Below are positions 13,222 to 34,264 of a stretch of 34,264 nucleotides of DNA, one piece after another; positions within the stretch are counted from its first letter, which is position 1, and the number at the start of each line of letters is the position of its first letter. This stretch comes from a virus, in IMG/VR virus record IMGVR_UViG_3300043436_004252, positions 1-34,264 of that record. The stretch is one strand, 5' to 3'. The position numbers and the translations under genes were made by a program. The notes beneath the pieces were generated by a model, which worked only from the letters and a program-made list of their open reading frames with translations, searched no databases and was not told the origin of the DNA.

Positions 13222-14009
13222 GCCTTTAGTTTAAATGGAATAGCCTTCTTTTTTTCAAGCATTCGACTGTAATCTAGTAGAACATTAGGATCGAATCCAT
13301 GGACGGGTTTCATGATACGATTGACCAAGATAATGTCCTTTGCAAGACAAATTCCGTCAGACAGAACAACATGGTCCGTGCCTGAAACGACTATCACATT
13401 CTGGTCAGGATTAAAATCGGTCAAGTTAGGTTTTGCCTCAAGCAGCCGGGACTTAAACTCGGAATTCTTTAGACTTGGTAAATCCAATACCGCCTTTCTT
13501 TTGATAGAGTAACCTAAATTGCATTTACTCTTTAGGTTTAATCTGTAAACCTCGTACCTGTCTAATTTAGTGGACTTACTAACAATATAGATCACATCCT
13601 GTTTGTGTATTTGATTATTGTTTAAATGAAAGTGAATGTGTTCTAATACTGGAATCTGTTTTCTTAGATACGATGCCATTACTTCAGACAAGATGGATGA
13701 GCATGCCTTAATGATATTCTTACCATTAGAGTCATCGGGCTGGGCCAATTGAGTTACTATTTCCATTAACTTTTCGTGTGACCTGACCACATTCAAATGT
13801 GAATCGTAAACCTTTTTATCAGCTATTACTGTGTTTAAATTTAGGTAATGAAAGACTATTTCGTAGAAGTTGGAAAAGTCACTATCTAAGTTTGAGAGAT
13901 ACTTCTGCTTCGCGTCCAAGAGAATGTACGTGTAATACTCTAGGTCAACAAAATTCGCTTGGCAGAGCCACATTGGGTCTAGCACAAGCTTGGGGTTTAA
14001 AGGTTTCAT
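13218..14009 (-). CDS. Unrecognised 263-aa protein, lone minus-strand gene
   Basis: It reads from ATG at 14009 down to a TAA whose complement is 13218-13220, sharing a TTAA with the stop of the convergent fibre gene. The protein is Lys-, Leu- and Asn-rich and looks globular. The N-terminal half is mostly helical (MKPLNPKLVLDPMWLCQANF, LEYYTYILLDAKQKYLSNL). The second half is more beta (KQDVIYIVSKSTKLDRYEVY, NVIVVSGTDHVVLSDGICLA). No signal peptide, membrane helix or metal or nucleotide motif is clear. It is the only minus-strand gene in the window and has its own AATAAATAAT late-promoter box at 14029-14038, so it is probably a late product read against the structural operons. I do not recognise the family and give no function. 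Confidence 0.7.
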   Translation of the reverse strand: MKPLNPKLVLDPMWLCQANFVDLEYYTYILLDAKQKYLSNLDSDFSNFYEIVFHYLNLNTVIADKKVYDSHLNVVRSHEKLMEIVTQLAQPDDSNGKNIIKACSSILSEVMASYLRKQIPVLEHIHFHLNNNQIHKQDVIYIVSKSTKLDRYEVYRLNLKSKCNLGYSIKRKAVLDLPSLKNSEFKSRLLEAKPNLTDFNPDQNVIVVSGTDHVVLSDGICLAKDIILVNRIMKPVHGFDPNVLLDYSRMLEKKKAIPFKLKA

Positions 14010-17574: not shown

Positions 17575-20500
17575 ATGTCAGTACAAGTAAAGATTTCAAG
17601 TATAAAATCCATCAACGGGACGAGCTTAAGCTCAGTGATCGACCTGTCTAATTTTAATTTTAACACATTAAAGACAGCCTTAGATGAATTTTTGACTTCA
17701 ATAAACTATGATCAGACTACTGGTGTGTCCGTTGACATTCAAGGAATCACCGCAAACACAGTCAAGATCAGACAAGGTTTAACTGTTTATGGTGCTCAAC
17801 AATCTGGAGGTATTTATCCAGAAGTGATAAACATGTATCCTACTGGTGCAATAACTGCAAAGAACGTTGTTGTTGAGGATGTACTAGAGGGTAGAAGATT
17901 AAGACTTAAAGTATTTGGAGTACTTCCTCCAACTGGCATACCTGGAGAAATCGTTTATATTACTGCGCAAAGTGGCAGAATTGAAGGATTTTACGGTTAC
18001 CTAGTTGCCACAGGTTGGACGCTACTTTCTGGAGGAGGCGGTGGAGCGTGTAGAGCAGCTATTACTAGATCAGCAACCCCAAACACTATCACAAGCGATA
18101 ATCAACTTGTATCAGATGGCCTGTTACCAATGCCTGCTCCGTTAACCACTAGTGAATATTTACTATTCGTTAACGGCCAGCAAATACTAGTCGGAGATGG
18201 TGATGTACTTGCTCCAGTATATTTTAGTAAGGATGGCGGAATAACTGCCTCAAATTACGGAGCAATTGATTCAACCGATGAACTCTATTGGAATACCTCA
18301 GTTGCTGGATTTGGATTAGACGGAAACGACATTGTTACCCTAATCTATTCGTCGGCTGATCCTTATTGTGGAGCAGCTGGAGTTACTTGCTCAACCGCAA
18401 TCGTCACGTCTGGGAATGATACTGCTCTTTACAATCAGCTTGGAGTTGAGGTAATACTCGATACTCCAGTTTCTCAAAGCTCTCCAGTAACAGTATGTAA
18501 GGTTCCAATTCCAACAGTTAATCCAACTGGAGCAGGTCTTTCGGCTGGTTATTTCTTGACCAATTCTGCGCTTGCTTTTGATATTACAACACCGCTTGCG
18601 ATTGGAGCAATTATTGGATTCACGATGCCGCAATCAATGAGTCTTTCTACATTCAATACAGTTAGAATATTTCATAATGTTGGAGGAACATACGTTGACG
18701 AAACCGTTTTGACTGGACCTTATGCCCCGAACTACTCAACTCGTAAAATATACGCTCAAGTAACTTCATTTAGTCCGTTTTTTGCGATTCCTCAAGTTCT
18801 AACAACCACTACATCGACTACAACAATATCACCAGTATTAACAACAACAATAGCTCCAACTACAACAACCACAACGTGTTCTCCTGGATCTATTTGGTAC
18901 ACGGTTGCAAACGTTTCGAATGCAACAACGGTTAATTTCGTTGGAACTCCAAGTGGACCATACCAAGTAACATTCTATCCAAACTCAGGAGGAAGCTATG
19001 ATCTAACTGCCCTGCATGGAGTAAACATAAGCCTGTCATGGATATTCAATCGTCTTGATACTGAATATGCAAGTGCTGGAATCAGTTCAGTATTTGGAAC
19101 ATACGTATTCACAACCTCAGGCGGCTGTCAATATTCAGTTAACGTTGCATTGGGTGCAACGACAACGACCACAACTGCGGCTGCGACTACGACAACAAGT
19201 ACGAGCACAACAAGTACAACGACTGCGGCTCCTACCACCACGTCCACGACGACTGCGGCTCCGACGACCACAACCACAACGGCTGCTCCAACTACGAGTA
19301 CAACTACAGCAGCTGCAACAACCACGACTACCACGAGTTACTGTAGCCTATTCACAATAACACCAACCATCAATAGCTTTGATAGGGTAGACGTCGCAAT
19401 ACAAGGAATCTCTTCAGGTTCTTATGAATTCTATGTAGATAATACCCTAGTTCATGCAGGAACTGTGCCTGAGCTCTATACAATAAACGGAATAACTCAA
19501 AATATACAATTTAAAGTTGTAATAGACGGCGGAACTTGCGAGTTCTGTTATGCTTTTGACTATGATAATCAAGTATTAACTCAAATTAACTGCACAAGTT
19601 ATGGAGTGACAACGACAACGACAACGGTAGCTCCGACTACTACGACTACGACTGCCGCTCCAACAACAACGACCACAACTGCAGCGGTTACCACAAGTAC
19701 GACCACCTGTACTCCATATAACTTCACGTACTTTGCGGATTCCGGCCAAGTATTATTCACAGTTGATATTGCGCCTATCCATCCTAGTCAAATCGATATA
19801 ACTGATCCGCTTGGAAGTGTCTTACCTAACGGTTCATATCCGGTTGTTACACCAGGAGGAGGTATCACTGACATTGGTCCATTACCTCTATCTCCTCCGT
19901 ATGGAACTTGGATAATTAGTCTATTCGGTTGTGATTACTTTATCACAGTTGCGACGCCTACCACTACTACGACAACGGCTCCTACGACCACAACTAGTAC
20001 AAGTACGACAACTAGTACGACAACTGCTGCTCCTACGACGACAACTAGTACAAGTACGACAACAAGTACGACCACAGCCGCTCCTACGACGACAACGACG
20101 ACTGAGGCTCCTACGACCACAACTAGTACAAGTACGACGACTACGACGACTGAGGCTCCTACGACCACAACTAGTACAAGTACGACGACTACGACGACTG
20201 AGGCTCCTACGACGACAACGACGACTGAGGCTCCTACGACCACAACTAGTACAAGTACGACGACTACGACGACTGAGGCTCCTACGACGACAACGACGAC
20301 TGAGGCTCCTACGACGACAACGACGACTGAGGCTCCTACGACGACAACGACGACTGAGGCTCCTACGACCACAACTAGTACAAGTACGACGACTACGACA
20401 ACGGAAGCTCCTACGACCACAACTAGTACAAGTACGACAACCAGCACGACCACAGCCGCCCCTACGACGACTACGACCACAGCCGCTCCAACCACGACGA

Positions 20501-20871
20501 CGACTACCGAAGAGCCGACTACTACTACGACGACTGAGGAAGAGACTACGACCACGACGACTGAGGAGGAGACTACAACCACTACCACTGTACTAGGTGA
20601 TACAACAACGACCACAACATCAAATGAACTAGGAGATCAAGTTAATATAGTTAATTGTGCAAATCCGGCAATTACATTATCTGTTGATTTTGCAGCTCAT
20701 GGAAGTAGTCCAATACTTGGAAGGACATATTACTTTACAGGAATAGATGACGGTTATCCAGCAGGCTGCTACACAGTTACTGGAATGGCGACGACGACTC
20801 CGACCACTTGGCTTGCTCCGATTCTCGGATCGTACATTAGTTGTGCTGCATGTAATGAAGCTAACCAGTAA
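17575..20871 (+). CDS. Mucin-like virion protein with Thr-rich linkers
   Basis: A 1098-aa protein. The N-terminal 36 residues contain NFNFN at 26-30, like the fibre protein at 10387. Residues 40-160 are beta-rich (GIPGEIVYITAQSGRIEG, then five Gly). Residues 160-405 form one or two further beta domains ending in VTSFSPFFAI. Four Thr/Ser/Pro/Ala tracts follow at residues 410-434, 529-587, 679-711 and 794-1016. Between and after them are four small domains (435-528, 590-678, 712-793, 1028-1098), each beginning with a Cys close after the tract and having a Gly/Thr-Cys pattern towards its end (GGCQY, GTCEF, FGCDY, AGCYT). There is no signal peptide or membrane anchor. The Thr tracts look like O-glycosylated mucin stalks, and the next gene in the unit is a glycosyltransferase. 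Fibre or surface-display protein is the likely role; glycosylation is inferred. Confidence 0.65.
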   Translation: MSVQVKISSIKSINGTSLSSVIDLSNFNFNTLKTALDEFLTSINYDQTTGVSVDIQGITANTVKIRQGLTVYGAQQSGGIYPEVINMYPTGAITAKNVVVEDVLEGRRLRLKVFGVLPPTGIPGEIVYITAQSGRIEGFYGYLVATGWTLLSGGGGGACRAAITRSATPNTITSDNQLVSDGLLPMPAPLTTSEYLLFVNGQQILVGDGDVLAPVYFSKDGGITASNYGAIDSTDELYWNTSVAGFGLDGNDIVTLIYSSADPYCGAAGVTCSTAIVTSGNDTALYNQLGVEVILDTPVSQSSPVTVCKVPIPTVNPTGAGLSAGYFLTNSALAFDITTPLAIGAIIGFTMPQSMSLSTFNTVRIFHNVGGTYVDETVLTGPYAPNYSTRKIYAQVTSFSPFFAIPQVLTTTTSTTTISPVLTTTIAPTTTTTTCSPGSIWYTVANVSNATTVNFVGTPSGPYQVTFYPNSGGSYDLTALHGVNISLSWIFNRLDTEYASAGISSVFGTYVFTTSGGCQYSVNVALGATTTTTTAAATTTTSTSTTSTTTAAPTTTSTTTAAPTTTTTTAAPTTSTTTAAATTTTTTSYCSLFTITPTINSFDRVDVAIQGISSGSYEFYVDNTLVHAGTVPELYTINGITQNIQFKVVIDGGTCEFCYAFDYDNQVLTQINCTSYGVTTTTTTVAPTTTTTTAAPTTTTTTAAVTTSTTTCTPYNFTYFADSGQVLFTVDIAPIHPSQIDITDPLGSVLPNGSYPVVTPGGGITDIGPLPLSPPYGTWIISLFGCDYFITVATPTTTTTTAPTTTTSTSTTTSTTTAAPTTTTSTSTTTSTTTAAPTTTTTTEAPTTTTSTSTTTTTTEAPTTTTSTSTTTTTTEAPTTTTTTEAPTTTTSTSTTTTTTEAPTTTTTTEAPTTTTTTEAPTTTTTTEAPTTTTSTSTTTTTTEAPTTTTSTSTTTSTTTAAPTTTTTTAAPTTTTTTEEPTTTTTTEEETTTTTTEEETTTTTTVLGDTTTTTTSNELGDQVNIVNCANPAITLSVDFAAHGSSPILGRTYYFTGIDDGYPAGCYTVTGMATTTPTTWLAPILGSYISCAACNEANQ
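18802..18876 (+). repeat. Thr-rich tract 1 of the mucin-like protein
   Basis: Twenty-five codons, mostly Thr with a few Ser, Pro, Ile and Ala, linking the N-terminal half to the first Cys-bounded domain. The codons are mixed ACA/ACT/ACC/ACG, so it is a protein-level rather than a simple DNA repeat. Confidence 0.8.
19159..19335 (+). repeat. Thr-rich tract 2 of the mucin-like protein
   Basis: Fifty-nine codons of Thr/Ser/Ala/Pro with the recurring phrase TTTAAPTTT. The GC content is higher than the surroundings because ACG, ACC and GCG/GCT codons are frequent. Confidence 0.85.
19609..19707 (+). repeat. Thr-rich tract 3 of the mucin-like protein
   Basis: Thirty-three codons with the phrase TTTTTTAAP repeated, between two Cys-bounded domains. 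Confidence 0.8.
19954..20622 (+). repeat. Thr-rich tract 4, 223 residues
   Basis: The longest mucin-like tract, residues 794-1016. It begins with AAP-containing units, passes through a 300-bp near-perfect tandem array of EAP units (20104-20403), and ends with acidic units (TTTTTTEEE and the like). About three quarters of the residues are Thr or Ser. The regular Glu gives this stalk a negative charge that the earlier tracts lack. Confidence 0.9.
20104..20403 (+). repeat. Composite DNA tandem repeat of 48-bp and 27-bp units
   Basis: Two unit types in the order A-A-B-A-B-B-B-A. Unit A is 48 bp and encodes EAPTTTTSTSTTTTTT. Unit B is 27 bp and encodes EAPTTTTTT. Copies are identical or differ by a few bases at the array end. 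Boundaries are at 20104, 20152, 20200, 20227, 20275, 20302, 20329 and 20356. The near-identity at DNA level points to recent expansion by slippage or recombination. Confidence 0.92.
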
Positions 20872-21927: not shown

Positions 21928-23856
21928 ATGTCTCACAAAATTAAAATAAAACAGGTTGACCTCAGCGGGGTCACCCAGGATAATGCCAAGACCCGATTTT
22001 TAGTAATTAATGCCAATGGTGATCTTTCATGGAATGATTCTCCACAAACAGGCAGTGCTGGAATATCCGGTCTAAATTTCTACGATGAAGGCGTACTCGT
22101 TGGAACCTATGCAAAAGTTAATTTTGTTGGAACTGGCGTTTTTGCCGATGAAAACCCAACTGCCTCAGATACAATAAATGTTTACATTCCACCTCCAACT
22201 TATGCAAGTCACTTCAACACAAATGACGGAACAACCAATGGAATAGTAGTTGAATCTGGAATCACCAGAGCAAATGTTAGAATAAGTAGTCCGACTACTG
22301 AGGGAACTCCTTTTTACACCGGTGGAGGTGCAAATGCCCTATGGGCCGGAGGAGTCCACTCGGCTCACCTAGTTAGTAACGGTACGCCTCTAGCCTTCAA
22401 TACAAATGCAGCAGTCACAGGCTTCGGCGGAGACTCCACGATAACGGTTAAAGTATTTAGTGGAGATGGAACTACTGTTCTCGCAACATTCACTACACCG
22501 GTGATCACAGCAAACGGAGTATTTTCTTCAAGCGGTGCGAACGCTGGAATATCAGTTGAAGTTATAAACTATGCAACCGATAGTTTAAAGTACAAAGCTC
22601 AAGTAGGAGTACGCGTTGACCTATATTCAATGTTCCGCTCAACTGGAACTCTGGGTTTGGATGGAGGTCGTTATCATGTAAAGATAGAGCATACTACGGA
22701 TACAACAACGGACGGTGGCACTACTTACTCATACACGCAAACCGATGCATTCATTGATATAAATCCTTCTACTCCATCATTTGGTGCAGGCTCAAGCGTA
22801 ACAATCATCGAGTCACCTACTCCAAGTAATATTGTCACAAGACACATAAGTGGTGTTGAATACTACACGATAGGTTCTCAATTTGAGGCGGGTGTCACGG
22901 AGATCAATAACATAAATGCAAATACTCAAGGCCGAGCGGGCGGAGCGAATACAAATTTTCAGTTAACTGCCGCAAACTACGGGCTTTCCACAATCGCCCA
23001 ATCAATATGGTCTCCATCCTTCGGAACATTTACCGGTTGGAATAATAATCATGATAATACTAATGATAGTTATTTAGTTACCGATTGGACAATTCCATCG
23101 AGTAGTTTCAGGTATCGTGGAGTTTCAGGAACAGCCTCGGCTACTGTATTCGATCCATGGGCAGCAAGCTCGCCGAAAACCTCTGCCTCTAATCTAATTT
23201 TAATTGATACAATATCAGGAGGTAGTTCTCAATACATTGAGACGTTTAATGATGAGACGTTTCGTAGACAATCTAATTACTCAACTTCATGGTCTTCAAC
23301 CTTACCTTTAGTGAATGGACAGGCTTGCGTGGTCGGTGGAACTCTAGTAAGACCTGACCGATACTACTTAACTGACGGAACTATAACTCCAAACTTAACT
23401 TCTTATAAACCTGATAAGGGCGGCGGAAATCCGAATTACACAGGCTTTTCAAATGATGCAAGTTTCTATCGTTCATTTTATACAACGTTAAGCGCATCAA
23501 CCGTACCTATTCCAAGTTTTTCAATGGTATTTTCAGGGACCTTTGTTGGAACTGCCCTAAGTGATTTACAAAATCAACACTTAAAGATATTCGTTAGAAA
23601 GATTGGAGCAACCGTCGGTAATTCAGGAACCTCATCACCTCCGCTTTTATTACATGGAGCAGAATACGATTTTGGTACTTTTAACGATGGTAGTACTGCC
23701 GGAACTGACACTCCAGGAATTAGATTGGGATCGTCTAGCGGCAGCACAATAAACGGTACTTTTGGAGGATTTAATGCAACCAATGGAATATACGTTGAAA
23801 TTCAAATTTGTCATCAAACCATACGAATCGATACAATAACGGTTACCTTCAACTAA
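21928..23856 (+). CDS. Fibre-like virion protein, 642 aa, family not recognised
   Basis: Starts at ATG 21928 behind a late-promoter box, without a Shine-Dalgarno sequence. The protein is Gly/Ser/Thr/Asn-rich and almost entirely beta by appearance, with one or two Cys and no membrane or signal segment. Residues 1-75 (MSHKIKIKQVDLSGV, then FLVINANGDLSWND) resemble a small N-terminal anchor. Residues 89-135 contain IPPPTYASHFNTNDGTTNG followed by a Thr/Gly-rich strand region. The middle has repeated strand-turn units (TITVKVFSGDGTTVLATFTT). The last 120 residues (FSMVFSGTFVGTAL, LKIFVRKIGATVG, YVEIQICHQTIRIDTITV) look like a compact jelly roll. It heads the transcription unit of the giant collagen-like protein, so a partner fibre, adhesin or adaptor is plausible. 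This is inference from composition and place. Confidence 0.55.
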   Translation: MSHKIKIKQVDLSGVTQDNAKTRFLVINANGDLSWNDSPQTGSAGISGLNFYDEGVLVGTYAKVNFVGTGVFADENPTASDTINVYIPPPTYASHFNTNDGTTNGIVVESGITRANVRISSPTTEGTPFYTGGGANALWAGGVHSAHLVSNGTPLAFNTNAAVTGFGGDSTITVKVFSGDGTTVLATFTTPVITANGVFSSSGANAGISVEVINYATDSLKYKAQVGVRVDLYSMFRSTGTLGLDGGRYHVKIEHTTDTTTDGGTTYSYTQTDAFIDINPSTPSFGAGSSVTIIESPTPSNIVTRHISGVEYYTIGSQFEAGVTEINNINANTQGRAGGANTNFQLTAANYGLSTIAQSIWSPSFGTFTGWNNNHDNTNDSYLVTDWTIPSSSFRYRGVSGTASATVFDPWAASSPKTSASNLILIDTISGGSSQYIETFNDETFRRQSNYSTSWSSTLPLVNGQACVVGGTLVRPDRYYLTDGTITPNLTSYKPDKGGGNPNYTGFSNDASFYRSFYTTLSASTVPIPSFSMVFSGTFVGTALSDLQNQHLKIFVRKIGATVGNSGTSSPPLLLHGAEYDFGTFNDGSTAGTDTPGIRLGSSSGSTINGTFGGFNATNGIYVEIQICHQTIRIDTITVTFN

Positions 23857-23872: not shown

Positions 23873-24079
23873 ATGGAAAAAACTTTCGATAAAAAGATAA
23901 AAGTTAAAATAGATAAAGAAAAGCAGTCAGTATCATTGAGCATGAAAGTGTCAGATGAAATGGTTAACGTATTCAAAACGTCAATCAATGAATTCAACGT
24001 CATGGTTGCAGAGTATCAAGCACAGTTATATGATGCTCAACTTGACGCGGTTGAAAATACTACTACTGAAATAATTTAA
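23873..24079 (+). CDS. Small 68-aa protein upstream of the giant gene
   Basis: ATG 23873 lies 16 nt after the previous stop with a weak A-rich AAAGAG upstream. The protein starts with a very Lys-rich segment (MEKTFDKKIKVKIDKEKQS), then a short beta-like stretch and a helical part (DEMVNVFKTSINEFNVMVAE) with spaced hydrophobic residues that could form a coiled coil. It ends 6 nt before the ATG of the giant collagen-like gene, in the same frame. T4-like phages use small helical chaperones to trimerise tail fibres, and this position would suit such a helper, but no sequence match supports it. It could equally be a small virion protein. Confidence 0.6.
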   Translation: MEKTFDKKIKVKIDKEKQSVSLSMKVSDEMVNVFKTSINEFNVMVAEYQAQLYDAQLDAVENTTTEII

Positions 24080-24085
24080 TAATAA

Positions 24086-27000
24086 ATGGCCGGATATACC
24101 GATAATGAAAGGTTAAAACTCGTATTTAAGGTTCAGGCTGCAAACGTAATCGATGCAGCCTCTGAATATAATTGGTATGAGGCGCGATTTGCGTTCAACC
24201 CAAATATCTCAGCAGATCGAGTCCTAACTCAATTCGATCAAGTCAAAGCAAACCCAGTTGGAAGTAAATCTGCTGCTCTTGCTCTATTGGGTTCAGGTAA
24301 TCCGCTAGACGGAATCGTTGAAGATGCCTACTCGTTGACTCCTACTAGTAAAGCGGTTCGCTTAACTCAGGTAATTACTGGAGAAAATTCAACTTGGGTA
24401 GCTGCATCTACTTACGGTGACATTACAACCCAAATTCTTGACTGGATTCAACCTCAAAAGATATTACAGGCAAGTGGAGCCCCTTCAATTGGTTGGACTG
24501 TTGAATTTTGGAATGGAGACCCAGCCTCAGGCGGTACCCAAATTTCAACAACCACGAATGCTGGTTCTGAAGTAAGCTGGGTATTCAACTACGATAATGG
24601 TCTATTGCTGTTATCTGATTCAATGGTATCGTATTTGACCTCAGCCTACGGAAGCGTAAATCCGTACATTAGAGGTTTTTATTACATAGGCACAACACTA
24701 AGCAGTGCACTTGGCTCTAACGGTTCTTCTGGAACTTCTGGAACAGCCGGTTCTTCTGGAACTTCGGGTACAAGCGGCAGCTCAGGAACATCTGGAACTG
24801 CTGGAAGCTCAGGAACTTCAGGTTCTACTGGAACATCTGGAACCTCCGGTTCGGCTGGGACCTCTGGTATAGATGGCGTCTCTGGAACATCAGGTTCTTC
24901 GGGTACATCAGGCGCAGCAGGTAGTTCAGGAAGCTCAGGTTCTTCTGGTTCAGCTGGCAGCTCAGGTTCTTCTGGAACTTCAGGCTCTGCTGGAACTTCT
25001 GGAACAGCCGGGTCTTCAGGAACTTCAGGAATAGATGGAGTCTCTGGAACTTCAGGTTCTTCTGGAACTTCGGGTTCAGCTGGCAGCTCAGGAAGCTCAG
25101 GCAGCTCAGGAACTTCTGGATCAAGCGGTTCAGCCGGTTCTAGTGGAACTTCCGGATCAAATGGTAGCTCTGGATCTTCAGGTTCATCAGGAACTTCAGG
25201 TATAGATGGTGTTTCAGGAACTTCTGGTTCTTCAGGTACTTCCGGTTCAGCTGGCAGCTCGGGAACTTCAGGTTCTACTGGGACAAGCGGTACAAGCGGT
25301 TCTACTGGGACAAGCGGTACAAGCGGTTCTACTGGTACTTCAGGAACAAGTGGTAGCTCGGGAACATCAGGCACAAGCGGAACATCAGGTTCAGCCGGTA
25401 CCTCAGGTTCGTCTGGAACTTCTGGTACATCAGGTTCTTCTGGTACAACTGGTACATCCGGTTCTTCTGGAACATCTGGAATAGACGGAGTATCAGGTAC
25501 TTCAGGTTCTTCAGGAACATCCGGTTCTGCTGGAAGTTCAGGAACAACCGGTACCTCAGGCACTTCAGGTTCTTCTGGTTCAGCTGGTTCTTCCGGAACT
25601 TCTGGATCAAGCGGTTCAGCTGGTTCAGCTGGTTCTTCAGGCACAAGCGGCTCAAGTGGTTCAGCTGGAAGCGCAGGAACATCAGGCTCAAGCGGTATTA
25701 GCGGAGTCAACGGTACAAATGGAACATCCGGCACAAGCGGTACAAGCGGAACGGCTGGTACCTCAGGAACCTCTGGAAGCTCAGGAACTTCAGGTTCAAG
25801 TGGAACTTCAGGTTCTACTGGAACATCTGGTACTTCAGGAAGCTCAGGAACATCTGGCTCTACTGGAACATCCGGGACATCGGGCTCTACTGGAACATCA
25901 GGAACTTCAGGTTCAAGTGGAACTTCAGGAATAGATGGCGTATCGGGAACCTCTGGTTCTTCAGGTACTTCAGGTTCAGCTGGAAGCTCTGGAACATCAG
26001 GTTCACAAGGTTCATCAGGAACTTCAGGATCAAGTGGTTCTGCCGGCTCAGCTGGAAGCTCAGGCTCAGCAGGTTCTTCTGGATCAAGCGGAAGCTCAGG
26101 AACATCAGGTTCAGCTGGAAGCTCAGGAACATCAGGTTCTTCTGGAAGCTCTGGAACAGCAGGTTCTTCTGGATCAAGCGGAAGCTCAGGAACATCAGGA
26201 TCAGCCGGATCTTCGGGAACTTCAGGATCAGCTGGATCAAGCGGAAGCTCAGGCTCAGCAGGTTCTTCAGGAACTTCAGGAATAGATGGCGTATCGGGAA
26301 CTTCAGGTTCAAGCGGAACTTCAGGTTCAACTGGTAGCTCAGGAACAAGCGGTTCTTCGGGAACTTCTGGATCTTCTGGAAGCTCAGGTTCGTCTGGAAC
26401 TAGCGGATCAACTGGTACATCAGGTACTTCTGGTTCAACCGGGAGCTCAGGTACATCAGGTTCTTCTGGAACCTCTGGATCAGCAGGTTCTTCTGGAACT
26501 TCAGGATCTTCTGGAACCTCAGGATCTTCTGGAACTTCTGGATCAACTGGAAGTTCAGGAACTTCAGGTTCATCCGGCTCGGCTGGATCGTCTGGAAGCT
26601 CAGGAACATCAGGCTCTGCTGGATCAAGCGGTTCATCAGGTTCAGCTGGATCTTCTGGAACTTCTGGATCTTCTGGAACGTCAGGTACTTCTGGTTCTAC
26701 TGGAACGTCCGGAACATCGGGTTCTAGCGGTTCATCAGGTACTTCAGGAATAGACGGTATATCAGGTACATCAGGTTCTTCTGGAACTTCTGGATCAGCC
26801 GGTTCTTCAGGAACTTCAGGTTCAGCCGGTTCTTCTGGAACTTCAGGTTCAGCTGGAACTTCCGGATCAAGCGGTTCTACTGGTACTTCAGGGACAAGCG
26901 GTTCTACTGGAACTTCAGGAACTTCTGGAACTTCAGGTTCTAGTGGTTCAGCTGGAAGCTCAGGAACTTCAGGTTCTGCCGGTAGCTCAGGTTCTTCTGG

Positions 27001-30000
27001 TTCAGCTGGAAGCTCAGGAACTTCCGGTTCCTCTGGAACTTCAGGAACATCCGGGTCAGCAGGTTCTTCAGGAACATCAGGTTCTTCAGGAACTTCAGGA
27101 TCAAGTGGATCAACTGGAACTTCAGGAACAAGCGGGTCAAGCGGAACGTCCGGATCAGCTGGAACATCAGGTAGCTCAGGAACTTCTGGAACATCAGGTT
27201 CTTCAGGATCATCTGGAACATCAGGAATAGATGGAGTCTCTGGAACATCAGGTTCTTCTGGAACATCAGGCTCAGGTGGTACTTCAGGTTCAGCTGGTAC
27301 ATCCGGTTCATCGGGCTCTTCTGGAACTAGCGGTACTTCTGGTACATCAGGAACTTCAGGTTCATCAGGAAGCTCAGGAACTTCAGGTTCTAGTGGTTCA
27401 GCTGGAACTTCAGGAACATCCGGTTCAACTGGTACTTCTGGAACTTCAGGCTCGACCGGTACATCAGGAACAAGCGGAAGCTCTGGTACTTCAGGAAGCT
27501 CAGGAACTTCAGGTTCGTCAGGATCAGCTGGAACTTCAGGTTCGTCAGGATCAGCTGGAACTTCAGGTTCGTCAGGATCTTCCGGAACTGCTGGTACATC
27601 TGGAACCTCTCCGACTGGTCTAGTTGCATCAGACTATGTGGTTCAAGGATACTTGGCGGCTAATCAAACAATTCCTACAAACGTTGATACGGTAATTCAA
27701 TTTTCGGATGATTTTGACCCAAATAACTGGTGGAACTCATCAACTTATAGATTTACACCAACCATTGCGGGATATTATAATGTAACTTTTCAGGTTTTAA
27801 TTAATCCAGGTACAGTAACTAACAATCAGTACAATACTCAAATTCGTAAGAATGGTAATAGTCAAGAGGCTATTTGGCAGAATCAGATAACCACTACAAT
27901 TGGTTTAAGTCAGGGTAACGATAAATTAATTTATTTGAATGGTTCAACTGATTACATTGATTTTACTATCTTTAATGGAGACCCTACTAGTATTAGTGTA
28001 TTTGGAAGTGCTCAAAAATCTCAAACATTTTTCCACGCATCTCTTATAGTTGGTGGTGGTACATCAGGAACTTCAGGATCAAGCGGTTCAGCTGGAACTT
28101 CAGGTTCTTCTGGAAGCTCAGGTTCTACTGGAACTTCAGGAACTTCTGGATCAAGCGGTTCAGCTGGTAGCTCTGGAACATCAGGTAGCTCAGGTTCTTC
28201 TGGAACATCAGGTAGCTCAGGCTCAACTGGTACCTCTGGAACATCAGGTTCAACTGGTACCTCTGGAACATCAGGTTCAACTGGTACCTCTGGAACATCA
28301 GGCTCAAGTGGAACTTCTGGATCAGCTGGTAGCTCAGGAACTTCAGGTACTTCAGGCTCAACTGGTACCTCTGGAACATCGGGCTCAACCGGAACATCAG
28401 GTAGCTCAGGAACTTCAGGTTCAACTGGTACTTCAGGTAGCTCAGGAACATCAGGTTCAAGCGGTTCTTCGGGAATTTCAGGTTCAAGCGGTAGCTCAGG
28501 AACTTCAGGTTCAACTGGTACTTCAGGTACCTCAGGAACATCTGGAAGCTCAGGATCTTCTGGATCAGCCGGTTCGTCAGGAACATCAGGTTCGTCTGGA
28601 TCAACCGGTTCTTCTGGAACGTCAGGCTCATCTGGAACATCAGGAATAGATGGAGTCTCTGGAACATCAGGCTCAAGTGGAACTTCTGGATCAGCTGGTA
28701 CGTCAGGAACGTCAGGCAGCTCAGGTTCTTCTGGAACTTCAGGTTCAGCTGGTACGTCAGGAACATCTGGCTCAACTGGCTCAGCTGGAAGCTCAGGAAC
28801 GTCAGGTTCAAGCGGATCAGCTGGTAGCTCAGGTTCTTCTGGGACCTCAGGCTCAACTGGTACGTCAGGAACGTCAGGCAGCTCAGGTTCTTCTGGAACT
28901 TCAGGCTCAAGTGGTAGCTCTGGATCATCAGGAACCTCAGGATCATCTGGAAGCTCAGGAACATCAGGTTCAGCTGGTTCTTCAGGAACATCAGGTTCAG
29001 CTGGAAGCTCTGGAACATCAGGTTCACAAGGTTCTTCTGGAACTTCTGGATCAGCAGGTTCTTCTGGAACTTCAGGATCTTCTGGAACTTCTGGATCAAC
29101 TGGAAGCTCAGGAACATCAGGTTCTGCTGGATCAAGCGGTTCGGCTGGAACATCAGGTTCGGCTGGAAGCTCAGGTACTTCTGGTTCGTCAGGATCATCA
29201 GGAACATCAGGTTCAAGCGGAACTTCTGGATCAGCTGGTTCTTCAGGAACTTCTGGATCATCAGGTTCTAGTGGCTCAAGTGGAACAAGCGGATCATCCG
29301 GTTCTAGTGGCTCAAGTGGATCAAGCGGTTCTTCTGGGTCAAGCGGAACTTCAGGCACTTCAGGTACTTCAGGTACTAGTGGATCAAGCGGTTCTTCCGG
29401 GTCAAGTGGAACTTCAGGTACTTCTGGAACAAGCGGTACTAGTGGAACTTCAGGTACTTCAGGTACTTCAGGTACTAGTGGAACTAGTGGTCAGGACGCG
29501 TTATCCGGTGGTGTTAATTTATTCTTTAACCATTCAGTTAATAGTGATATTTCTGGTGATAAAGAGTTAGGAAGATTAACCACAACCGCTACTCAATCTA
29601 ATACTACAGTAAATTTTACCGCCCTCCAACAAAACGTTTTAGTAAATTCATCGTTTGTTACTGCACCGGCGTTTCCAGCAGTTACGATAATCCCAAATGG
29701 TATTTGGCACGGCTACTTGTACTTTACTAAACATGCTCAAAATGACAATTTAGAGGCTTACTATACTGTATCTAAGGTAAACTCAACTGGAGGAAGTAAA
29801 ACTTTACTATTTACTAGTGACTCTGTTGAACTTGGATGGTTGAATAATAACACAACACCAGTTGAAATTAAACTTAATGCGGTTGTGACAACTGCATCGT
29901 TAGTTATTACAGATAGAATTGTTATAGACATATATGTCAATAACAACGACAACGCAAATAGAACTATTGACTTCTATACTGAAGGTACACTACACTATTC

Positions 30001-33000
30001 ATATATTGTAACAACATTCGGTTTTACTTCAGGAACTAGTGGAACATCAGGTACTTCAGGATCAAGCGGAAGCTCAGGTACTTCAGGATCATCTGGAAGC
30101 TCAGGAACATCAGGTTCAACTGGTACTTCAGGTACTTCAGGAACAAGCGGTAGCTCAGGGTCTTCAGGTTCTTCTGGAACAAGCGGCTCAACTGGAAGCT
30201 CAGGAACTTCAGGTTCGACAGGTACTTCAGGTAGCTCAGGAACATCAGGTTCTTCTGGATCAAGCGGTTCAACCGGTACGTCAGGTTCAACTGGAACCTC
30301 TGGTACTTCAGGTTCAACTGGAACCTCTGGTACTTCAGGCTCAGCTGGTTCTTCTGGAACAAGCGGTTCAACTGGAAGCTCAGGAACATCAGGTATAGAC
30401 GGAGTATCGGGAACCTCAGGTTCTTCAGGAACTAGCGGTTCAGCTGGAACATCCGGTTCTAGTGGCTCTTCTGGAACACGAGGTACTTCAGGAACCTCAG
30501 GTACTTCAGGTTCTGCTGGTACATCTGGTACCTCTGGTACATCAGGAACTAGCGGTTCAACAGGTTCATCCGGAACTTCTGGATCAGCTGGAAGCTCAGG
30601 AACGTCAGGTTCGCAAGGATCTTCTGGATCTTCTGGAACAAGTGGATCAGCTGGAAGCTCAGGAACTTCAGGTTCAAGCGGTTCATCAGGAACCTCAGGA
30701 TCATCTGGAAGCTCAGGAACATCAGGGTCGACCGGTACTTCAGGTAGCTCAGGAACATCAGGTTCAACAGGTTCTTCTGGAACATCAGGAACATCAGGTA
30801 CATCAGGATCTTCTGGTACATCTGGTTCAACCGGATCATCTGGGACATCAGGTAGCTCAGGAACGTCTGGCTCAACAGGTACTTCAGGATCAAGCGGTTC
30901 AAGTGGAACCTCAGGCTCAGCTGGTTCTTCGGGAACTAGCGGTTCTTCAGGATCAGCAGGTTCATCCGGATCATCAGGCTCAAGCGGAACATCAGGATCA
31001 GCTGGTTCTTCCGGTAGCTCAGGAACATCAGGTTCAACTGGTAGTTCTGGTAGCTCAGGAACTTCTGGTTCTTCTGGATCAGCCGGTACTTCTGGTACTT
31101 CTGGTTCTTCAGGAACATCAGGTTCAGCTGGAAGCTCAGGAACTTCTGGTTCTTCTGGATCAGCCGGTTCGTCTGGAACATCAGGTTCACAAGGTTCTTC
31201 TGGAAGCTCAGGAACATCAGGATCAAGCGGATCAGCTGGAAGCTCAGGAACATCAGGATCAGCAGGTTCTTCAGGAACTTCAGGTTCTGCTGGATCTTCT
31301 GGTACTTCAGGCTCTGCTGGAAGCTCAGGAACTTCAGGTTCTTCTGGATCAGCTGGAAGCTCAGGTTCTTCTGGAACTAGAGGTACTTCTGGAACTTCAG
31401 GTTCTTCAGGTAGCTCAGGAACTTCCGGTTCAGCAGGAACTTCAGGCTCAAGCGGTAGCTCAGGAACTTCAGGTTCTACTGGAACATCAGGTTCTAGTGG
31501 AACATCAGGTATAGACGGCGTGTCCGGTACATCCGGTTCGTCAGGAACATCAGGTTCTACTGGAACAAGTGGAAGCTCAGGTTCTTCTGGAACTAGAGGT
31601 ACTTCCGGTACTTCAGGTTCAAGCGGAAGCTCAGGAACGTCAGGATCTTCTGGTTCAGCTGGAAGCTCAGGAACTTCAGGTTCACAAGGTTCATCCGGTT
31701 CTTCAGGTTCAAGTGGAACATCAGGTTCTGCAGGTTCAAGCGGAACATCAGGTTCAACCGGTACTTCTGGTACGTCAGGCTCAACTGGTACTTCAGGTAC
31801 TTCTGGATCAGCTGGAACATCAGGTTCTGCAGGGTCTTCGGGAACATCAGGTTCTGCAGGTTCAAGCGGAACATCCGGTTCATCAGGCTCAACTGGTACT
31901 TCAGGTACTTCTGGAAGTTCAGGTTCTTCAGGAACTGCCGGCAGCTCAGGAACATCAGGCTCTAGTGGGTCATCCGGTTCTAGTGGAACATCAGGGTCAG
32001 TTGGTTCTTCAGGAACTAGTGGTTCTTCAGGAAGCTCTGGGACATCAGGATCAGCTGGTTCAAGTGGAACCTCAGGTTCGGCTGGAAGCTCAGGAACTTC
32101 TGGTTCTTCAGGAACTTCAGGTTCAGCTGGATCAAGCGGAACATCAGGTTCAGCAGGTTCTTCAGGAACATCAGGTTCAACTGGTACTTCCGGTAGCTCA
32201 GGAACATCAGGTTCAACTGGTACTTCAGGTAGCTCAGGAACAAGCGGCAGCTCAGGTTCTTCTGGAACTAGAGGTACTTCAGGTACTTCAGGAAGCTCAG
32301 GAACTTCCGGCTCAGCTGGAAGCTCAGGAACATCTGGTTCAGCTGGAAGCTCAGGAACATCTGGTTCAGCCGGGTCTTCAGGAACTTCTGGATCTGCCGG
32401 AAGCTCAGGAACATCAGGTTCAGCTGGTTCAAGCGGTTCAGCTGGAAGCTCAGGAACATCAGGTTCACAAGGTTCTTCTGGATCAAGTGGATCATCTGGA
32501 TCAGCTGGAACTTCAGGTTCGGCAGGGTCTTCAGGAACATCAGGTTCAAGCGGAACTTCTGGTTCTACCGGCTCTAGTGGAACTTCAGGTTCTTCTGGTA
32601 GTTCAGGAACATCTGGTTCATCAGGATCAGCCGGTTCTTCAGGAACTTCAGGTTCACAAGGTTCTTCTGGATCTTCTGGATCAAGCGGATCAGCTGGTTC
32701 TTCTGGAAGCTCAGGAACTTCAGGATCTACCGGGACATCAGGTTCTTCAGGAAGCTCGGGTACATCAGGTAGTAGCGGAACATCAGGTTCGGCTGGATCA
32801 AGCGGATCTTCCGGTTCTGCTGGTTCTTCTGGTACTTCAGGATCAAGCGGGTCAGCCGGCTCTTCAGGAACTTCAGGATCAGCTGGAAGCTCTGGTACAT
32901 CCGGTTCTACTGGAACAAGTGGTAGCTCAGGAACTTCTGGTTCTTCTGGATCAGCCGGTTCTTCAGGAACTAGTGGATCGTCAGGTTCAGCCGGAAGCTC

Positions 33001-34264
33001 AGGAACTTCTGGTTCTACTGGGACAAGCGGAAGCTCAGGAACTTCAGGTAGCTCAGGTTCTTCTGGAACTAGAGGTACTTCAGGTACATCTGGATCTTCT
33101 GGAAGCTCAGGAACTTCAGGTTCTTCTGGATCAGCCGGTTCTTCAGGAACAAGCGGATCAGCTGGAAGCTCAGGAACAAGCGGAGCAACCGGTGCAGCCG
33201 GTCCTACTGGCCCAACTGGTACTCCAGGTTCAAACGGCTCTAGTGGAACTTCTGGAATTGATGGTGTATCTGGAACATCAGGTTCAAGCGGTACTTCAGG
33301 CTCAGCTGGAACTTCAGGATCAAGCGGATCTTCAGGAACTAGAGGTACTTCAGGTACATCCGGTTCATCTGGATCAGCCGGTTCTTCAGGAACAAGCGGA
33401 TCAGCTGGAAGCTCAGGAACATCAGGCTCTACTGGAACAAGCGGTAGCTCAGGCTCAGCAGGAACTTCTGGTTCTACTGGAACAAGCGGTAGCTCAGGAT
33501 CTTCAGGAACTAGAGGTACTTCAGGTACATCTGGATCGTCAGGAAGCTCTGGTACTTCTGGTTCAAGTGGTTCATCCGGAACTTCTGGATCAGCAGGTTC
33601 TTCTGGAACTTCAGGTTCTTCTGGAACTTCTGGATCAAGTGGTTCGACTGGAACTTCAGGGACAAGCGGTTCTACTGGAACTTCCGGAACTTCCGGGTCA
33701 GCAGGTTCTTCAGGAACTTCAGGTTCTTCTGGAACTGCAGGAACTTCAGGATCAAGCGGAAGCGCCGGTTCTTCTGGAACTTCAGGTAGCTCAGGAACTT
33801 CAGGAAGCTCAGGTTCTTCAGGAACCCGAGGTACTTCAGGTACTTCAGGTTCAAGCGGAAGCTCAGGAACTTCTGGATCAACTGGTACTTCAGGCTCAAG
33901 TGGAATAAGTGGAGTTAGTGGAAGTGACGGTAGTTCAGGTTCTTCTGGAACAGCCGGTTCATCAGGAACTTCTGGTTCTACTGGAACAAGCGGTAGCTCA
34001 GGTTCTTCAGGAACTAGAGGTACTTCAGGTACTTCAGGTTCAAGCGGAAGCTCAGGTACTTCAGGTTCAAGCGGAAGCTCAGGTACTTCAGGTTCAGCTG
34101 GAAGCTCAGGTACTTCAGGTTCAGCTGGAAGCTCAGGTACTTCAGGTTCTTCTGGAACTAGAGGTACTTCTGGAACATCGGGTACTTCTGGAACAAGCGG
34201 TGCAACTGGTCCTACTGGTCCTACTGGCCCTCCTGGCCCTCCAGGCGGTGGTGGCGGTGGTACG
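24086..34264 (+). CDS. Giant collagen-like virion protein with C1q-like domain (3' end missing)
   Basis: The frame opens at ATG 24086 and has no stop up to the last base: 3393 codons and still open. Residues 1-209 are a non-repetitive head (MAGYTDNERLKLVFKVQA at the start, NPYIRGFYYIGTT at the end), probably the virion anchor. Gly-X-Y tracts occupy residues 210-1175 (322 triplets), 1325-1804 (160) and 1983-3386 (468). They are built mainly of GTS, GSS, GSA and GST triplets with rare GID, GSQ and GTR ones. Residues 1176-1324 form a C1q-like jelly roll and 1805-1982 a second globular domain. The visible end is GPPGPP plus six Gly and Thr, which announces another domain beyond the window. There is no signal peptide or membrane segment. 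Collagen plus C1q-type heads is the build of the Bacillus exosporium fibre BclA and of animal C1q. A trimeric surface fibre is the likely role. Many false frames run through the repeats on both strands. Confidence 0.8.
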   Translation, partial: MAGYTDNERLKLVFKVQAANVIDAASEYNWYEARFAFNPNISADRVLTQFDQVKANPVGSKSAALALLGSGNPLDGIVEDAYSLTPTSKAVRLTQVITGENSTWVAASTYGDITTQILDWIQPQKILQASGAPSIGWTVEFWNGDPASGGTQISTTTNAGSEVSWVFNYDNGLLLLSDSMVSYLTSAYGSVNPYIRGFYYIGTTLSSALGSNGSSGTSGTAGSSGTSGTSGSSGTSGTAGSSGTSGSTGTSGTSGSAGTSGIDGVSGTSGSSGTSGAAGSSGSSGSSGSAGSSGSSGTSGSAGTSGTAGSSGTSGIDGVSGTSGSSGTSGSAGSSGSSGSSGTSGSSGSAGSSGTSGSNGSSGSSGSSGTSGIDGVSGTSGSSGTSGSAGSSGTSGSTGTSGTSGSTGTSGTSGSTGTSGTSGSSGTSGTSGTSGSAGTSGSSGTSGTSGSSGTTGTSGSSGTSGIDGVSGTSGSSGTSGSAGSSGTTGTSGTSGSSGSAGSSGTSGSSGSAGSAGSSGTSGSSGSAGSAGTSGSSGISGVNGTNGTSGTSGTSGTAGTSGTSGSSGTSGSSGTSGSTGTSGTSGSSGTSGSTGTSGTSGSTGTSGTSGSSGTSGIDGVSGTSGSSGTSGSAGSSGTSGSQGSSGTSGSSGSAGSAGSSGSAGSSGSSGSSGTSGSAGSSGTSGSSGSSGTAGSSGSSGSSGTSGSAGSSGTSGSAGSSGSSGSAGSSGTSGIDGVSGTSGSSGTSGSTGSSGTSGSSGTSGSSGSSGSSGTSGSTGTSGTSGSTGSSGTSGSSGTSGSAGSSGTSGSSGTSGSSGTSGSTGSSGTSGSSGSAGSSGSSGTSGSAGSSGSSGSAGSSGTSGSSGTSGTSGSTGTSGTSGSSGSSGTSGIDGISGTSGSSGTSGSAGSSGTSGSAGSSGTSGSAGTSGSSGSTGTSGTSGSTGTSGTSGTSGSSGSAGSSGTSGSAGSSGSSGSAGSSGTSGSSGTSGTSGSAGSSGTSGSSGTSGSSGSTGTSGTSGSSGTSGSAGTSGSSGTSGTSGSSGSSGTSGIDGVSGTSGSSGTSGSGGTSGSAGTSGSSGSSGTSGTSGTSGTSGSSGSSGTSGSSGSAGTSGTSGSTGTSGTSGSTGTSGTSGSSGTSGSSGTSGSSGSAGTSGSSGSAGTSGSSGSSGTAGTSGTSPTGLVASDYVVQGYLAANQTIPTNVDTVIQFSDDFDPNNWWNSSTYRFTPTIAGYYNVTFQVLINPGTVTNNQYNTQIRKNGNSQEAIWQNQITTTIGLSQGNDKLIYLNGSTDYIDFTIFNGDPTSISVFGSAQKSQTFFHASLIVGGGTSGTSGSSGSAGTSGSSGSSGSTGTSGTSGSSGSAGSSGTSGSSGSSGTSGSSGSTGTSGTSGSTGTSGTSGSTGTSGTSGSSGTSGSAGSSGTSGTSGSTGTSGTSGSTGTSGSSGTSGSTGTSGSSGTSGSSGSSGISGSSGSSGTSGSTGTSGTSGTSGSSGSSGSAGSSGTSGSSGSTGSSGTSGSSGTSGIDGVSGTSGSSGTSGSAGTSGTSGSSGSSGTSGSAGTSGTSGSTGSAGSSGTSGSSGSAGSSGSSGTSGSTGTSGTSGSSGSSGTSGSSGSSGSSGTSGSSGSSGTSGSAGSSGTSGSAGSSGTSGSQGSSGTSGSAGSSGTSGSSGTSGSTGSSGTSGSAGSSGSAGTSGSAGSSGTSGSSGSSGTSGSSGTSGSAGSSGTSGSSGSSGSSGTSGSSGSSGSSGSSGSSGSSGTSGTSGTSGTSGSSGSSGSSGTSGTSGTSGTSGTSGTSGTSGTSGTSGQDALSGGVNLFFNHSVNSDISGDKELGRLTTTATQSNTTVNFTALQQNVLVNSSFVTAPAFPAVTIIPNGIWHGYLYFTKHAQNDNLEAYYTVSKVNSTGGSKTLLFTSDSVELGWLNNNTTPVEIKLNAVVTTASLVITDRIVIDIYVNNNDNANRTIDFYTEGTLHYSYIVTTFGFTSGTSGTSGTSGSSGSSGTSGSSGSSGTSGSTGTSGTSGTSGSSGSSGSSGTSGSTGSSGTSGSTGTSGSSGTSGSSGSSGSTGTSGSTGTSGTSGSTGTSGTSGSAGSSGTSGSTGSSGTSGIDGVSGTSGSSGTSGSAGTSGSSGSSGTRGTSGTSGTSGSAGTSGTSGTSGTSGSTGSSGTSGSAGSSGTSGSQGSSGSSGTSGSAGSSGTSGSSGSSGTSGSSGSSGTSGSTGTSGSSGTSGSTGSSGTSGTSGTSGSSGTSGSTGSSGTSGSSGTSGSTGTSGSSGSSGTSGSAGSSGTSGSSGSAGSSGSSGSSGTSGSAGSSGSSGTSGSTGSSGSSGTSGSSGSAGTSGTSGSSGTSGSAGSSGTSGSSGSAGSSGTSGSQGSSGSSGTSGSSGSAGSSGTSGSAGSSGTSGSAGSSGTSGSAGSSGTSGSSGSAGSSGSSGTRGTSGTSGSSGSSGTSGSAGTSGSSGSSGTSGSTGTSGSSGTSGIDGVSGTSGSSGTSGSTGTSGSSGSSGTRGTSGTSGSSGSSGTSGSSGSAGSSGTSGSQGSSGSSGSSGTSGSAGSSGTSGSTGTSGTSGSTGTSGTSGSAGTSGSAGSSGTSGSAGSSGTSGSSGSTGTSGTSGSSGSSGTAGSSGTSGSSGSSGSSGTSGSVGSSGTSGSSGSSGTSGSAGSSGTSGSAGSSGTSGSSGTSGSAGSSGTSGSAGSSGTSGSTGTSGSSGTSGSTGTSGSSGTSGSSGSSGTRGTSGTSGSSGTSGSAGSSGTSGSAGSSGTSGSAGSSGTSGSAGSSGTSGSAGSSGSAGSSGTSGSQGSSGSSGSSGSAGTSGSAGSSGTSGSSGTSGSTGSSGTSGSSGSSGTSGSSGSAGSSGTSGSQGSSGSSGSSGSAGSSGSSGTSGSTGTSGSSGSSGTSGSSGTSGSAGSSGSSGSAGSSGTSGSSGSAGSSGTSGSAGSSGTSGSTGTSGSSGTSGSSGSAGSSGTSGSSGSAGSSGTSGSTGTSGSSGTSGSSGSSGTRGTSGTSGSSGSSGTSGSSGSAGSSGTSGSAGSSGTSGATGAAGPTGPTGTPGSNGSSGTSGIDGVSGTSGSSGTSGSAGTSGSSGSSGTRGTSGTSGSSGSAGSSGTSGSAGSSGTSGSTGTSGSSGSAGTSGSTGTSGSSGSSGTRGTSGTSGSSGSSGTSGSSGSSGTSGSAGSSGTSGSSGTSGSSGSTGTSGTSGSTGTSGTSGSAGSSGTSGSSGTAGTSGSSGSAGSSGTSGSSGTSGSSGSSGTRGTSGTSGSSGSSGTSGSTGTSGSSGISGVSGSDGSSGSSGTAGSSGTSGSTGTSGSSGSSGTRGTSGTSGSSGSSGTSGSSGSSGTSGSAGSSGTSGSAGSSGTSGSSGTRGTSGTSGTSGTSGATGPTGPTGPPGPPGGGGGGT
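24713..27610 (+). repeat. Collagen-like tract 1, about 322 Gly-X-Y triplets
   Basis: Gly codons stay at positions equal to 8 modulo 9 wherever I checked, so the 9-bp register is unbroken. GTS, GSS and GSA dominate. GID-G(V/I)S triplet pairs occur at 24866, 25028, 25199, 25478, 25928, 26279, 26747 and 27224, with a variant (GISGVNGTN) at 25694. A GSQ triplet is at 26000. Pro is essentially absent. Perfect 27-bp tandem copies occur locally, for example from 25271 and from 27512. Confidence 0.92.
27611..28057 (+). other. C1q-like globular domain inside the giant protein
   Basis: Residues 1176-1324. YRFTPTIAGYYNVTFQV fits the C1q core pattern F-x(5)-G-x-Y-x-[FV]-x-F. It is followed by the expected TQIRKNG strand and the LIYLNGSTDYIDFTIFN strand pair near the end. 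C1q and TNF-like domains trimerise and cap collagen helices. Here the domain lies between two collagen tracts, and the next tract begins after a GGG linker. Confidence 0.7.
28058..29497 (+). repeat. Collagen-like tract 2, about 160 Gly-X-Y triplets
   Basis: Register Gly at positions equal to 5 modulo 9, shifted from tract 1 by the C1q-like domain. GID is present once (28643) and GSQ once (29021). The last 200 bases are almost pure GTS and GSS, ending in GQD. Three perfect 27-bp copies encoding GSTGTSGTS lie at 28220-28300. Confidence 0.92.
29498..30031 (+). other. Second globular domain inside the giant protein
   Basis: Residues 1805-1982, non-repetitive and beta-rich: ALSGGVNLFFNHSVNSDIS at the start, NGIWHGYLYFTKHAQNDN in the middle, and a hydrophobic strand (ASLVITDRIVIDIYVNNN) before IDFYTEGTLHYSYIVTTFGF. 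The YF/FF-N-S and TEG-x-L-H-Y-S-Y features suggest a jelly roll as in phage fibre knobs. The family is not recognised. It resets the collagen register. Confidence 0.6.
30032..34243 (+). repeat. Collagen-like tract 3, about 468 Gly-X-Y triplets
   Basis: Gly codons again at positions equal to 8 modulo 9. This tract alone carries GTR triplets, ten of them (30473, 31373, 31589, 32264, 33065, 33335, 33506, 33821, 34010, 34154), usually inside GSSGTRGTSGTS. GID is at 30392, 31508 and 33254. GSQ is at 30608, 31184, 31679, 32462 and 32651. Pro appears only in two clusters, near 33203-33231 and 34208-34243. Four 27-bp tandem units lie at 34037-34144. Confidence 0.92.

Follow-up and report, generated by a model that had tools for sequence, protein, structure and literature searches.

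Collagen-like fibres are already known from phages (PMC3368898), as are glycosylated collagens from Bacillus spores and mimivirus (PMC8968730). In the known bacterial collagens, proline occupies 19–31% of the X positions (PMC8968730). The phiCbK filament, about 200 nm long, makes the first contact with the cell (PMC3556154), and the flexible 50–100 nm head fibres of PTm1 and PTm5 also touch the cell first, as cited in PMC9973310 and PMC13282480. TibC is a protein-serine O-heptosyltransferase, which attaches heptose to a repetitive protein at Ser and not at Thr (PMC4358343).

The window, that is, the whole 34,264-nucleotide stretch of DNA analysed here, is a linear IMG/VR virus contig that ends inside a giant Gly-X-Y gene (Table 1). 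With a probability of roughly 0.55, this gene would belong to a jumbo phage infecting Bacteroidota and encode the stalk of a virion fibre that is homotrimeric and O-glycosylated; the triple helix, the glycosylation and the length of the fibre are what we infer from the sequence. The gene begins with an ATG and reaches the end of the window without a stop, and is thus incomplete, as the first-pass annotation had stated. A frame as long as 3393 codons would arise by chance with a probability of about 1e-71, and the protein scores 1197 bits against Pfam Collagen (PF01391), for which the cut-off is 27.2. The repeat had been put at about 950 triplets (2850 residues) in three tracts and, if a collagen helix, at about 815 nm; a strict count gives 952 triplets or 2856 residues in perfect register, for which 817 nm is computed at 0.286 nm per residue. 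The proline-rich run and poly-Gly at the visible end are probably the close of the last tract. In full-length relatives, 194–322 aa follow the last tract, so that the complete gene is predicted to encode probably about 3600–3700 aa.

Table 1. Features of the window, in order of position; domains and tracts of the giant gene follow the gene itself.
Feature	Position	Strand	Basis or remark
Fibre-type protein with short GPT-rich Gly-X-Y stretch near N-terminus	10387..13221	+	tail collar PHROG E 1e-5; Pfam Collagen E 0.09
263-aa gene	13218..14009	-	74–97% conserved in relatives; weak JmjC-like match, E 0.07
Neck-protein-like structural protein	14090..16162	+	head closure Hc2 E 3e-6; T4 neck protein E 0.006
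Amidoligase_2-like protein	16167..17519		PF12224 E 6e-5
1098-aa protein with mucin-like Thr/Pro linkers	17575..20871	+	homologues in 40 loci
Predicted GT-A fold glycosyltransferase (phrog_4417), 318 aa	20912..21868	+	AF2 and Foldseek
Second fibre/adhesin-type protein, 642 aa (phrog_31482)	21928..23856	+	
Small 68-aa protein directly upstream of fibre gene	23873..24079	+	
Giant collagen-like fibre gene	24086..34264	+	3393 codons visible, open at contig end
N-terminal head domain, ~205 aa, putative virion anchor	24086..24712	+	phage homologues and PHROG profiles
Gly-X-Y tract 1	24713..27610	+	residues 210–1175, 322 triplets
Inter-tract domain 1, C1q/TNF-like, likely trimerising	27611..28057	+	weak profile matches
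Gly-X-Y tract 2	28058..29497	+	residues 1325–1804, 160 triplets
Inter-tract domain 2	29498..30031	+	similar domains recur in relatives
Gly-X-Y tract 3	30032..34261	+	residues 1983–3392, 470 triplets visible
Pro-rich end GAT-GPT-GPT-GPP-GPP, then poly-Gly (GGG-GGT)	34199..34264	+	likely close of last tract

The commonest triplets are GTS (368), GSS (342), GSA (105) and GST (59). The repeat is thus rich in Ser and Thr, with Ser the commonest residue after Gly, and nearly free of charge. It is also nearly free of proline: the Pro-rich X and Y positions typical of known bacterial collagens are absent, with Pro in only 7 of the 952 triplets. Such Pro-rich positions are a property of the known members and lie outside the Pfam definition of PF01391. 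At the DNA level, each of the 957 Gly codons of the tracts begins with GG, followed by A (456), T (406), C (69) or G (26), while GTS is spelled in 36 ways and GSS in 50, and this synonymous diversity extends across the whole array. Varied codons, together with Gly codons that vary only at the third position, point to an old array under selection at the protein level. The array also yields long antisense open frames, such as a VPEVPELPE-rich one of 1422 aa at 29995-34263 (-). The lack of proline makes the repeat an intrinsically weak triple-helix former, and stability is the weak point of the helix reading: on an additive host–guest index, the window has a mean of 26 and its relatives one of 25, where GPP reaches 45.5. 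The low index might be answered by sugar, by great length or by cold fresh water, or else by a softer, non-helical brush.

The head domain of the giant protein matches phrog_33494 (E 1e-31) and phrog_9417 (E 1.9e-10), the latter being the family of gp072 of Caulobacter phage Magneto, of the phiCbK group. Magneto gp072 is encoded two genes upstream of the proposed phiCbK head filament, a protein of 2799 aa. Homologues with 28–40% identity occur, without collagen, in Shewanella and Vibrio phages, and relatives of the domain in other phages lie inside structural modules adjoining capsid genes; none was found in plasmids. A search of solved structures with the domain returned antibody noise only. 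The AF2 model is poor (pLDDT 49), so its structural matches in CcrColossus and Atu_ph07 are leads only. Scanning viral contigs with this domain as query gave ten relatives. In the loci L108 and L109, the same head domain precedes a Gly-X-Y tract of quite different chemistry (GEQGFQGATGLDG), which shows that anchor and stalk chemistry are swapped; the front domains of sister giant Gly-X-Y genes differ from that of the window. In the relative G002, the fibre gene (at 80–92 kb) is found outside the head module, 66 kb away from the major capsid gene (at 13–14 kb). Gene position therefore does not place the fibre on the particle, and with no location near the capsid gene we do not class it as a phiCbK-type head filament.

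Inter-tract domain 1 looks C1q/TNF-like from its profile matches. Each match is weak—Pfam C1q at E 0.027, with 15.1 bits below the cut-off of 23.7; C1QL3 at E 0.1; a TNF-family ligand at E 0.0028 with a 4-sequence profile—but all three point to the same trimeric superfamily, one that is often attached to collagen. For inter-tract domain 2, no match was found in Pfam or the PDB. The C-terminal domains of full-length homologues are swapped between lineages. Directly after the fibre gene, two relatives carry a second collagen gene, of 2810 aa and 747 triplets in G001 and of 870 aa and 213 triplets in G002. The G001 paralogue ends in Peptidase_S74 (PF13884, E 3.5e-14), a tail-fibre chaperone of trimeric phage fibres; this domain is absent from the C-terminal ends of the direct homologues, while the C-terminus of the window protein lies outside the contig.

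What kind of phage is this? Window proteins encoded at 556-4137 and 14090-16162 match those of Tenacibaculum phages PTm1, PTm5 and pT24, Chryseobacterium phages MA9V-1/2 and Flavobacterium phage MaF61, and also those of Sphingomonas phage PAU, Prevotella Lak phages and other huge phages. These matches place the phage among the jumbo phages of this group, whose hosts are mostly Bacteroidota; its own host would, by kinship, also belong to the Bacteroidota. The closest relative contigs are up to 271 kb long, and a DNA-level search found no near relatives among isolates. Homologues of the neck-protein-like protein are annotated as neck protein in PTm1 and MA9V-2. Outside the array, no other long gene than the 263-aa one lies on the minus strand. 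The Amidoligase_2-like gene is part of the structural module and is conserved in 47 loci. The 1098-aa protein has repeated TTTTTTEAPTTTT stretches and is encoded directly before the GT-A gene; it is a possible second target of glycosylation. The first 40 aa of the 642-aa protein constitute an anchor module that is reused before Gly-X-Y tracts in sister loci, and every relative that shares the head domain and has upstream sequence also has the 68-aa gene. The first-pass annotation had called the giant gene product a phage protein and suggested virion filaments; the virion-type N-terminal domain, the globular domains between tracts, the swapped C-termini, the S74 paralogue and the neck and fibre neighbours all argue for a phage fibre.

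Two kinds of glycosyltransferase are associated with these genes. The first is the GT-A enzyme encoded three genes upstream of the fibre gene in the window. It matches no Pfam or NCBIfam family, and a supposed likeness to plant serine galactosyltransferases was dropped for want of Pfam support. Its AF2 model (pLDDT 93) matches GT8/GT24-type structures in Foldseek (E ~1e-6, probability 1.00, TM only 0.4–0.5), the best being xyloside xylosyltransferase, UGGT, glycogenin and LgtC. Both Asp residues of its HDSD motif (the DxD metal site) are invariant in 28 of 28 homologues. Among isolates, 74 phages have a homologue, most of them infecting lactic acid bacteria, enterococci or staphylococci, and in several of the isolate loci examined, the gene adjoins the major capsid or major tail gene. 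The current name of phrog_4417 is "prophage pi2 protein 34", with no glycosyltransferase family annotation; on the model it is plausibly a widespread glycosyltransferase of virion proteins in general. The idea that the GT-A gene is strictly coupled to collagen was rejected, since homologues at or below about 63% identity are mostly found in loci lacking Gly-X-Y and since the isolate phages often have the gene beside capsid or tail genes.

The second kind is found downstream of the collagen gene in relatives, where multi-domain glycosyltransferases (GT4, GT9, with FkbM methyltransferase) are encoded. In G001, G002, G006 and G012, one domain of these proteins scores 260–274 bits against TIGR04414, the NCBIfam family of TibC/Aah autotransporter O-heptosyltransferases (curated cut-off 200). 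A TibC-like domain lies just downstream of the collagen gene in each of the five direct relatives that were searched in full and is found in 14 of 18 virus contigs of a broader set; it is missing from all seven isolates, which are also without the collagen gene. The G006 domain matches the sequence of the TibC crystal structure (4rap) at E 1.3e-57 and, in the alignment, keeps the catalytic base D110, T226, K230, W305 and the four iron-finger Cys (residue roles from PMC4358343). These Cys are conserved in all 14 phage TibC-like domains. The sugar-binding R286, on the other hand, is not kept, Ala standing opposite in the pairwise alignment of G006 to 4rap, and for this reason the enzyme is called TibC-like and not a proven BAHT. 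Since the window ends before the expected locus, the presence of a TibC-like gene in the window's own phage is a prediction.

How tight is the linkage? Viral contigs were scanned with the TibC-like domain alone, and 80 loci were kept of 161 matches. Of these 80, 42 hold a Gly-X-Y gene with 20 triplets or more, nearly always GTS/GSS, compared with none of the 80 control loci that surround the portal gene in this phage group. (The portal gene replaced the MaF61 terminase, for which no relatives were found as a first control query.) With near-duplicates removed, the figures are 23 of 42 against 0 of 36 (Fisher p 1.8e-8), and with only loci above 18 kb, 22 of 36 against 0 of 22, the two sets differing in locus length. 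The query comes from a collagen-bearing phage, so the nearest matches are not independent of the hypothesis; the linkage persists at 44–52% identity to the query. In the more distant phage G012 (343 kb), the segment L122:6208-14043 holds a giant Gly-X-Y gene followed by a sulfotransferase, a GT9-type protein and a GT4-TibC-FkbM fusion and, as read from these genes, is a glycosylation island adjoining collagen. The same pair occurs in an isolate, Microcystis phage Mel-JY01 (PP395634.1), where a GTS/GSS collagen frame of 203 triplets at the start of the record lies about 4 kb from the TibC-like domain. The frame appears to be in phase with 771 codons at the end of the record, which would make about 1790 aa if the ends join. 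The deposited annotation has the antisense frame L409:739-2298 (-) as a hypothetical protein and misses the collagen gene opposite.

In the fibre that we propose, the 205-aa N-terminal domain would fix the protein to the particle. Three chains would join via globular domains, and the Gly-X-Y tracts would wind into an extended, flexible triple helix, held in register by the C1q/TNF-like and other inter-tract domains. The lineage-specific, exchangeable C-terminal domain may bind the host, start folding, or both. Because the repeat lacks proline and charge, many of the Ser residues are proposed to be O-glycosylated by phage enzymes: the TibC-like heptosyltransferase encoded downstream in relatives, perhaps together with the upstream GT-A enzyme. 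The sugar would be added in the cytoplasm of the host, ahead of assembly or while it proceeds, and the product would be a hydrated, protease-resistant, sugar-coated fibre, in which glycosylation may stabilise the protein as proline stabilises animal collagen. Fibre length would drift as triplets are gained and lost in register by recombination. The fibre would reach far beyond the particle, so that its tip could make a long-range, reversible first contact with the host. The most specific version of this model, in which tailed-phage fibres of ~0.5–1 micrometre contain a proline-free collagen helix stabilised by serine O-heptosylation through a repurposed autotransporter heptosyltransferase, is put forward tentatively and is itself rather doubtful.

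Could the array be an artefact of assembly, or of frameshifts, as had been feared? Many such contigs, the window among them, do break inside the repeats, and no continuation of the 3' end of the window was found among viral contigs. However, nine IMG/VR contigs of different samples hold a complete homologous frame, of 2514, 3011, 3622, 3730 (twice), 3733 (three times) and 3852 aa, although exact array lengths may be off in these short-read assemblies. The longest unbroken run, in G007, has 1149 triplets, or 3447 residues, and would measure 986 nm if extended. Over 10,869 nt, G002 and G008 differ by a single in-frame deletion of 324 bp (36 triplets), and the arrays of G006 and G007 share 3959 unique 40-mers at 14 offsets from -1350 to +3321 bp, all of them multiples of 9. 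The array thus gains and loses whole triplets in register. Independent intact assemblies, in-register rearrangement and synonymous diversity throughout the array lead us to reject an artefact, which we regard as very improbable, and to take the array as genuine. "Exceptionally long", as the gene had been described, holds against a viral median of 154 triplets (from 114 pattern-selected loci, 75% of which are cut by an end), but not against relatives of up to 3852 aa or the 3488-aa Gly-X-Y frame (833 triplets) that lies unannotated in LR756501.1 (L413), the record of a published 735-kb phage. A second unannotated Gly-X-Y frame in that record has at least 2604 aa. The window protein still ranks among the longest collagen-like proteins seen in phages. 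Starts and stops of large phage contigs often fall inside Gly-X-Y genes, as at the ends of G010, G012, G013 and G014 and the 3' end of the window; since such genes break assemblies, "linear" huge-phage genomes look shorter than they really are.

Given a genuine array, the tracts might still form a soft, far-reaching, flexible, glycosylated mucin-like brush or tether that decorates the particle without any triple helix. Tracts rich in Ser and Thr and nearly devoid of proline and charge, linked glycosylation genes, a neighbouring protein with mucin-like Thr/Pro linkers and the low triple-helix index would all suit a brush. A brush, however, needs neither a strict Gly at every third residue, slip-free over thousands of residues, nor a restriction of indels to multiples of 9 bp, and the tracts are flanked by domains of trimeric fibres; we therefore think it improbable, if worth keeping in mind. 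Gly-rich folds occur in phage adhesins. The compact alternative raised in the first-pass annotation would be a bundle of polyproline-II or polyglycine-II helices, as in the snow-flea antifreeze protein and the Gly-rich tips of some phage adhesins, so that the adhesin would be globular or sheet-like and far short of 817 nm. The small X and Y side chains fit such packing, but bundles turn every 5–10 triplets with loop residues, whereas here runs of 160–1149 triplets proceed without regular breaks, and a defined bundle could hardly bear the free variation in length between near-identical siblings. We consider this unlikely and an extended trimer likelier than a compact fold. Less probable again is a protein made in the infected cell and never mounted on the virion, for instance one that is exported or surface-bound and alters the host. 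While gp76 of phiCbK, a proposed functional analogue, was not detected in virions either (PMC3556154), the present gene belongs to a series of structural genes, its anchor domain is met again in structural modules beside capsid genes of other phages, and its start has no signal peptide-like feature.

If the glycosylated fibre is borne out, freshwater jumbo-phage fibres longer than the phage itself would be among the longest triple-helical viral proteins, and Ser/Thr chemistry with a linked protein O-heptosyltransferase would be another route to collagen stability without hydroxyproline. It would also explain why assemblies of such genomes break, suggest what the hair-like appendages on some jumbo phages are made of, and offer a compact collagen-plus-glycosylation cassette for biomaterials work. 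The isolate Mel-JY01, with the same gene pair, offers a direct test system. The new element is the pairing of a TibC-like enzyme with a phage collagen gene; a literature text search, with most subscription journals outside its reach, found no pairing of a collagen-like phage Gly-X-Y protein with a glycosyltransferase.

How, then, does the proposed fibre compare with the known systems? PTm1 and PTm5 are distant relatives by their structural proteins, but the PTm1 record has no Pfam collagen match. Their head fibres must then be made of something else, and direct equivalence with the window fibre was rejected. BclA of Bacillus spores and the mimivirus proteins are likewise sugar-modified collagen-like surface proteins, modified by viral enzymes in the case of mimivirus (PMC8968730), but they involve other enzymes and other acceptor residues and do not belong to a bacterial virus. 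The phiCbK head filament module (gp74–gp76) is connected to the window by the profile match of the head domain to the Magneto gp072 family. In phiCbK, the anchor-family domain and the giant Gly-rich protein (~2800 aa, two genes on) are separate genes, the Gly-rich part is not Gly-X-Y collagen, and host and phage type differ. Both TibC/AAH (BAHT; PMC4358343) and the phage enzyme are linked to a Ser-rich repetitive surface protein; the phage enzyme, however, is fused to GT4 or methyltransferase domains and stands beside a collagen-like protein, whereas the substrate of TibC is a beta-helix autotransporter. The EPcl side-tail fibres of E. coli O157:H7 prophages (PMC3368898) likewise have Gly-X-Y domains between globular phage-fibre domains; they are trimeric, and their lengths differ by multiples of a triplet, as do those of the arrays in the window's relatives. 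Compared with EPcl, the window protein has an anchor domain unrelated in name to PfN, and its tracts are many times longer, nearly proline-free and linked to glycosyltransferases.
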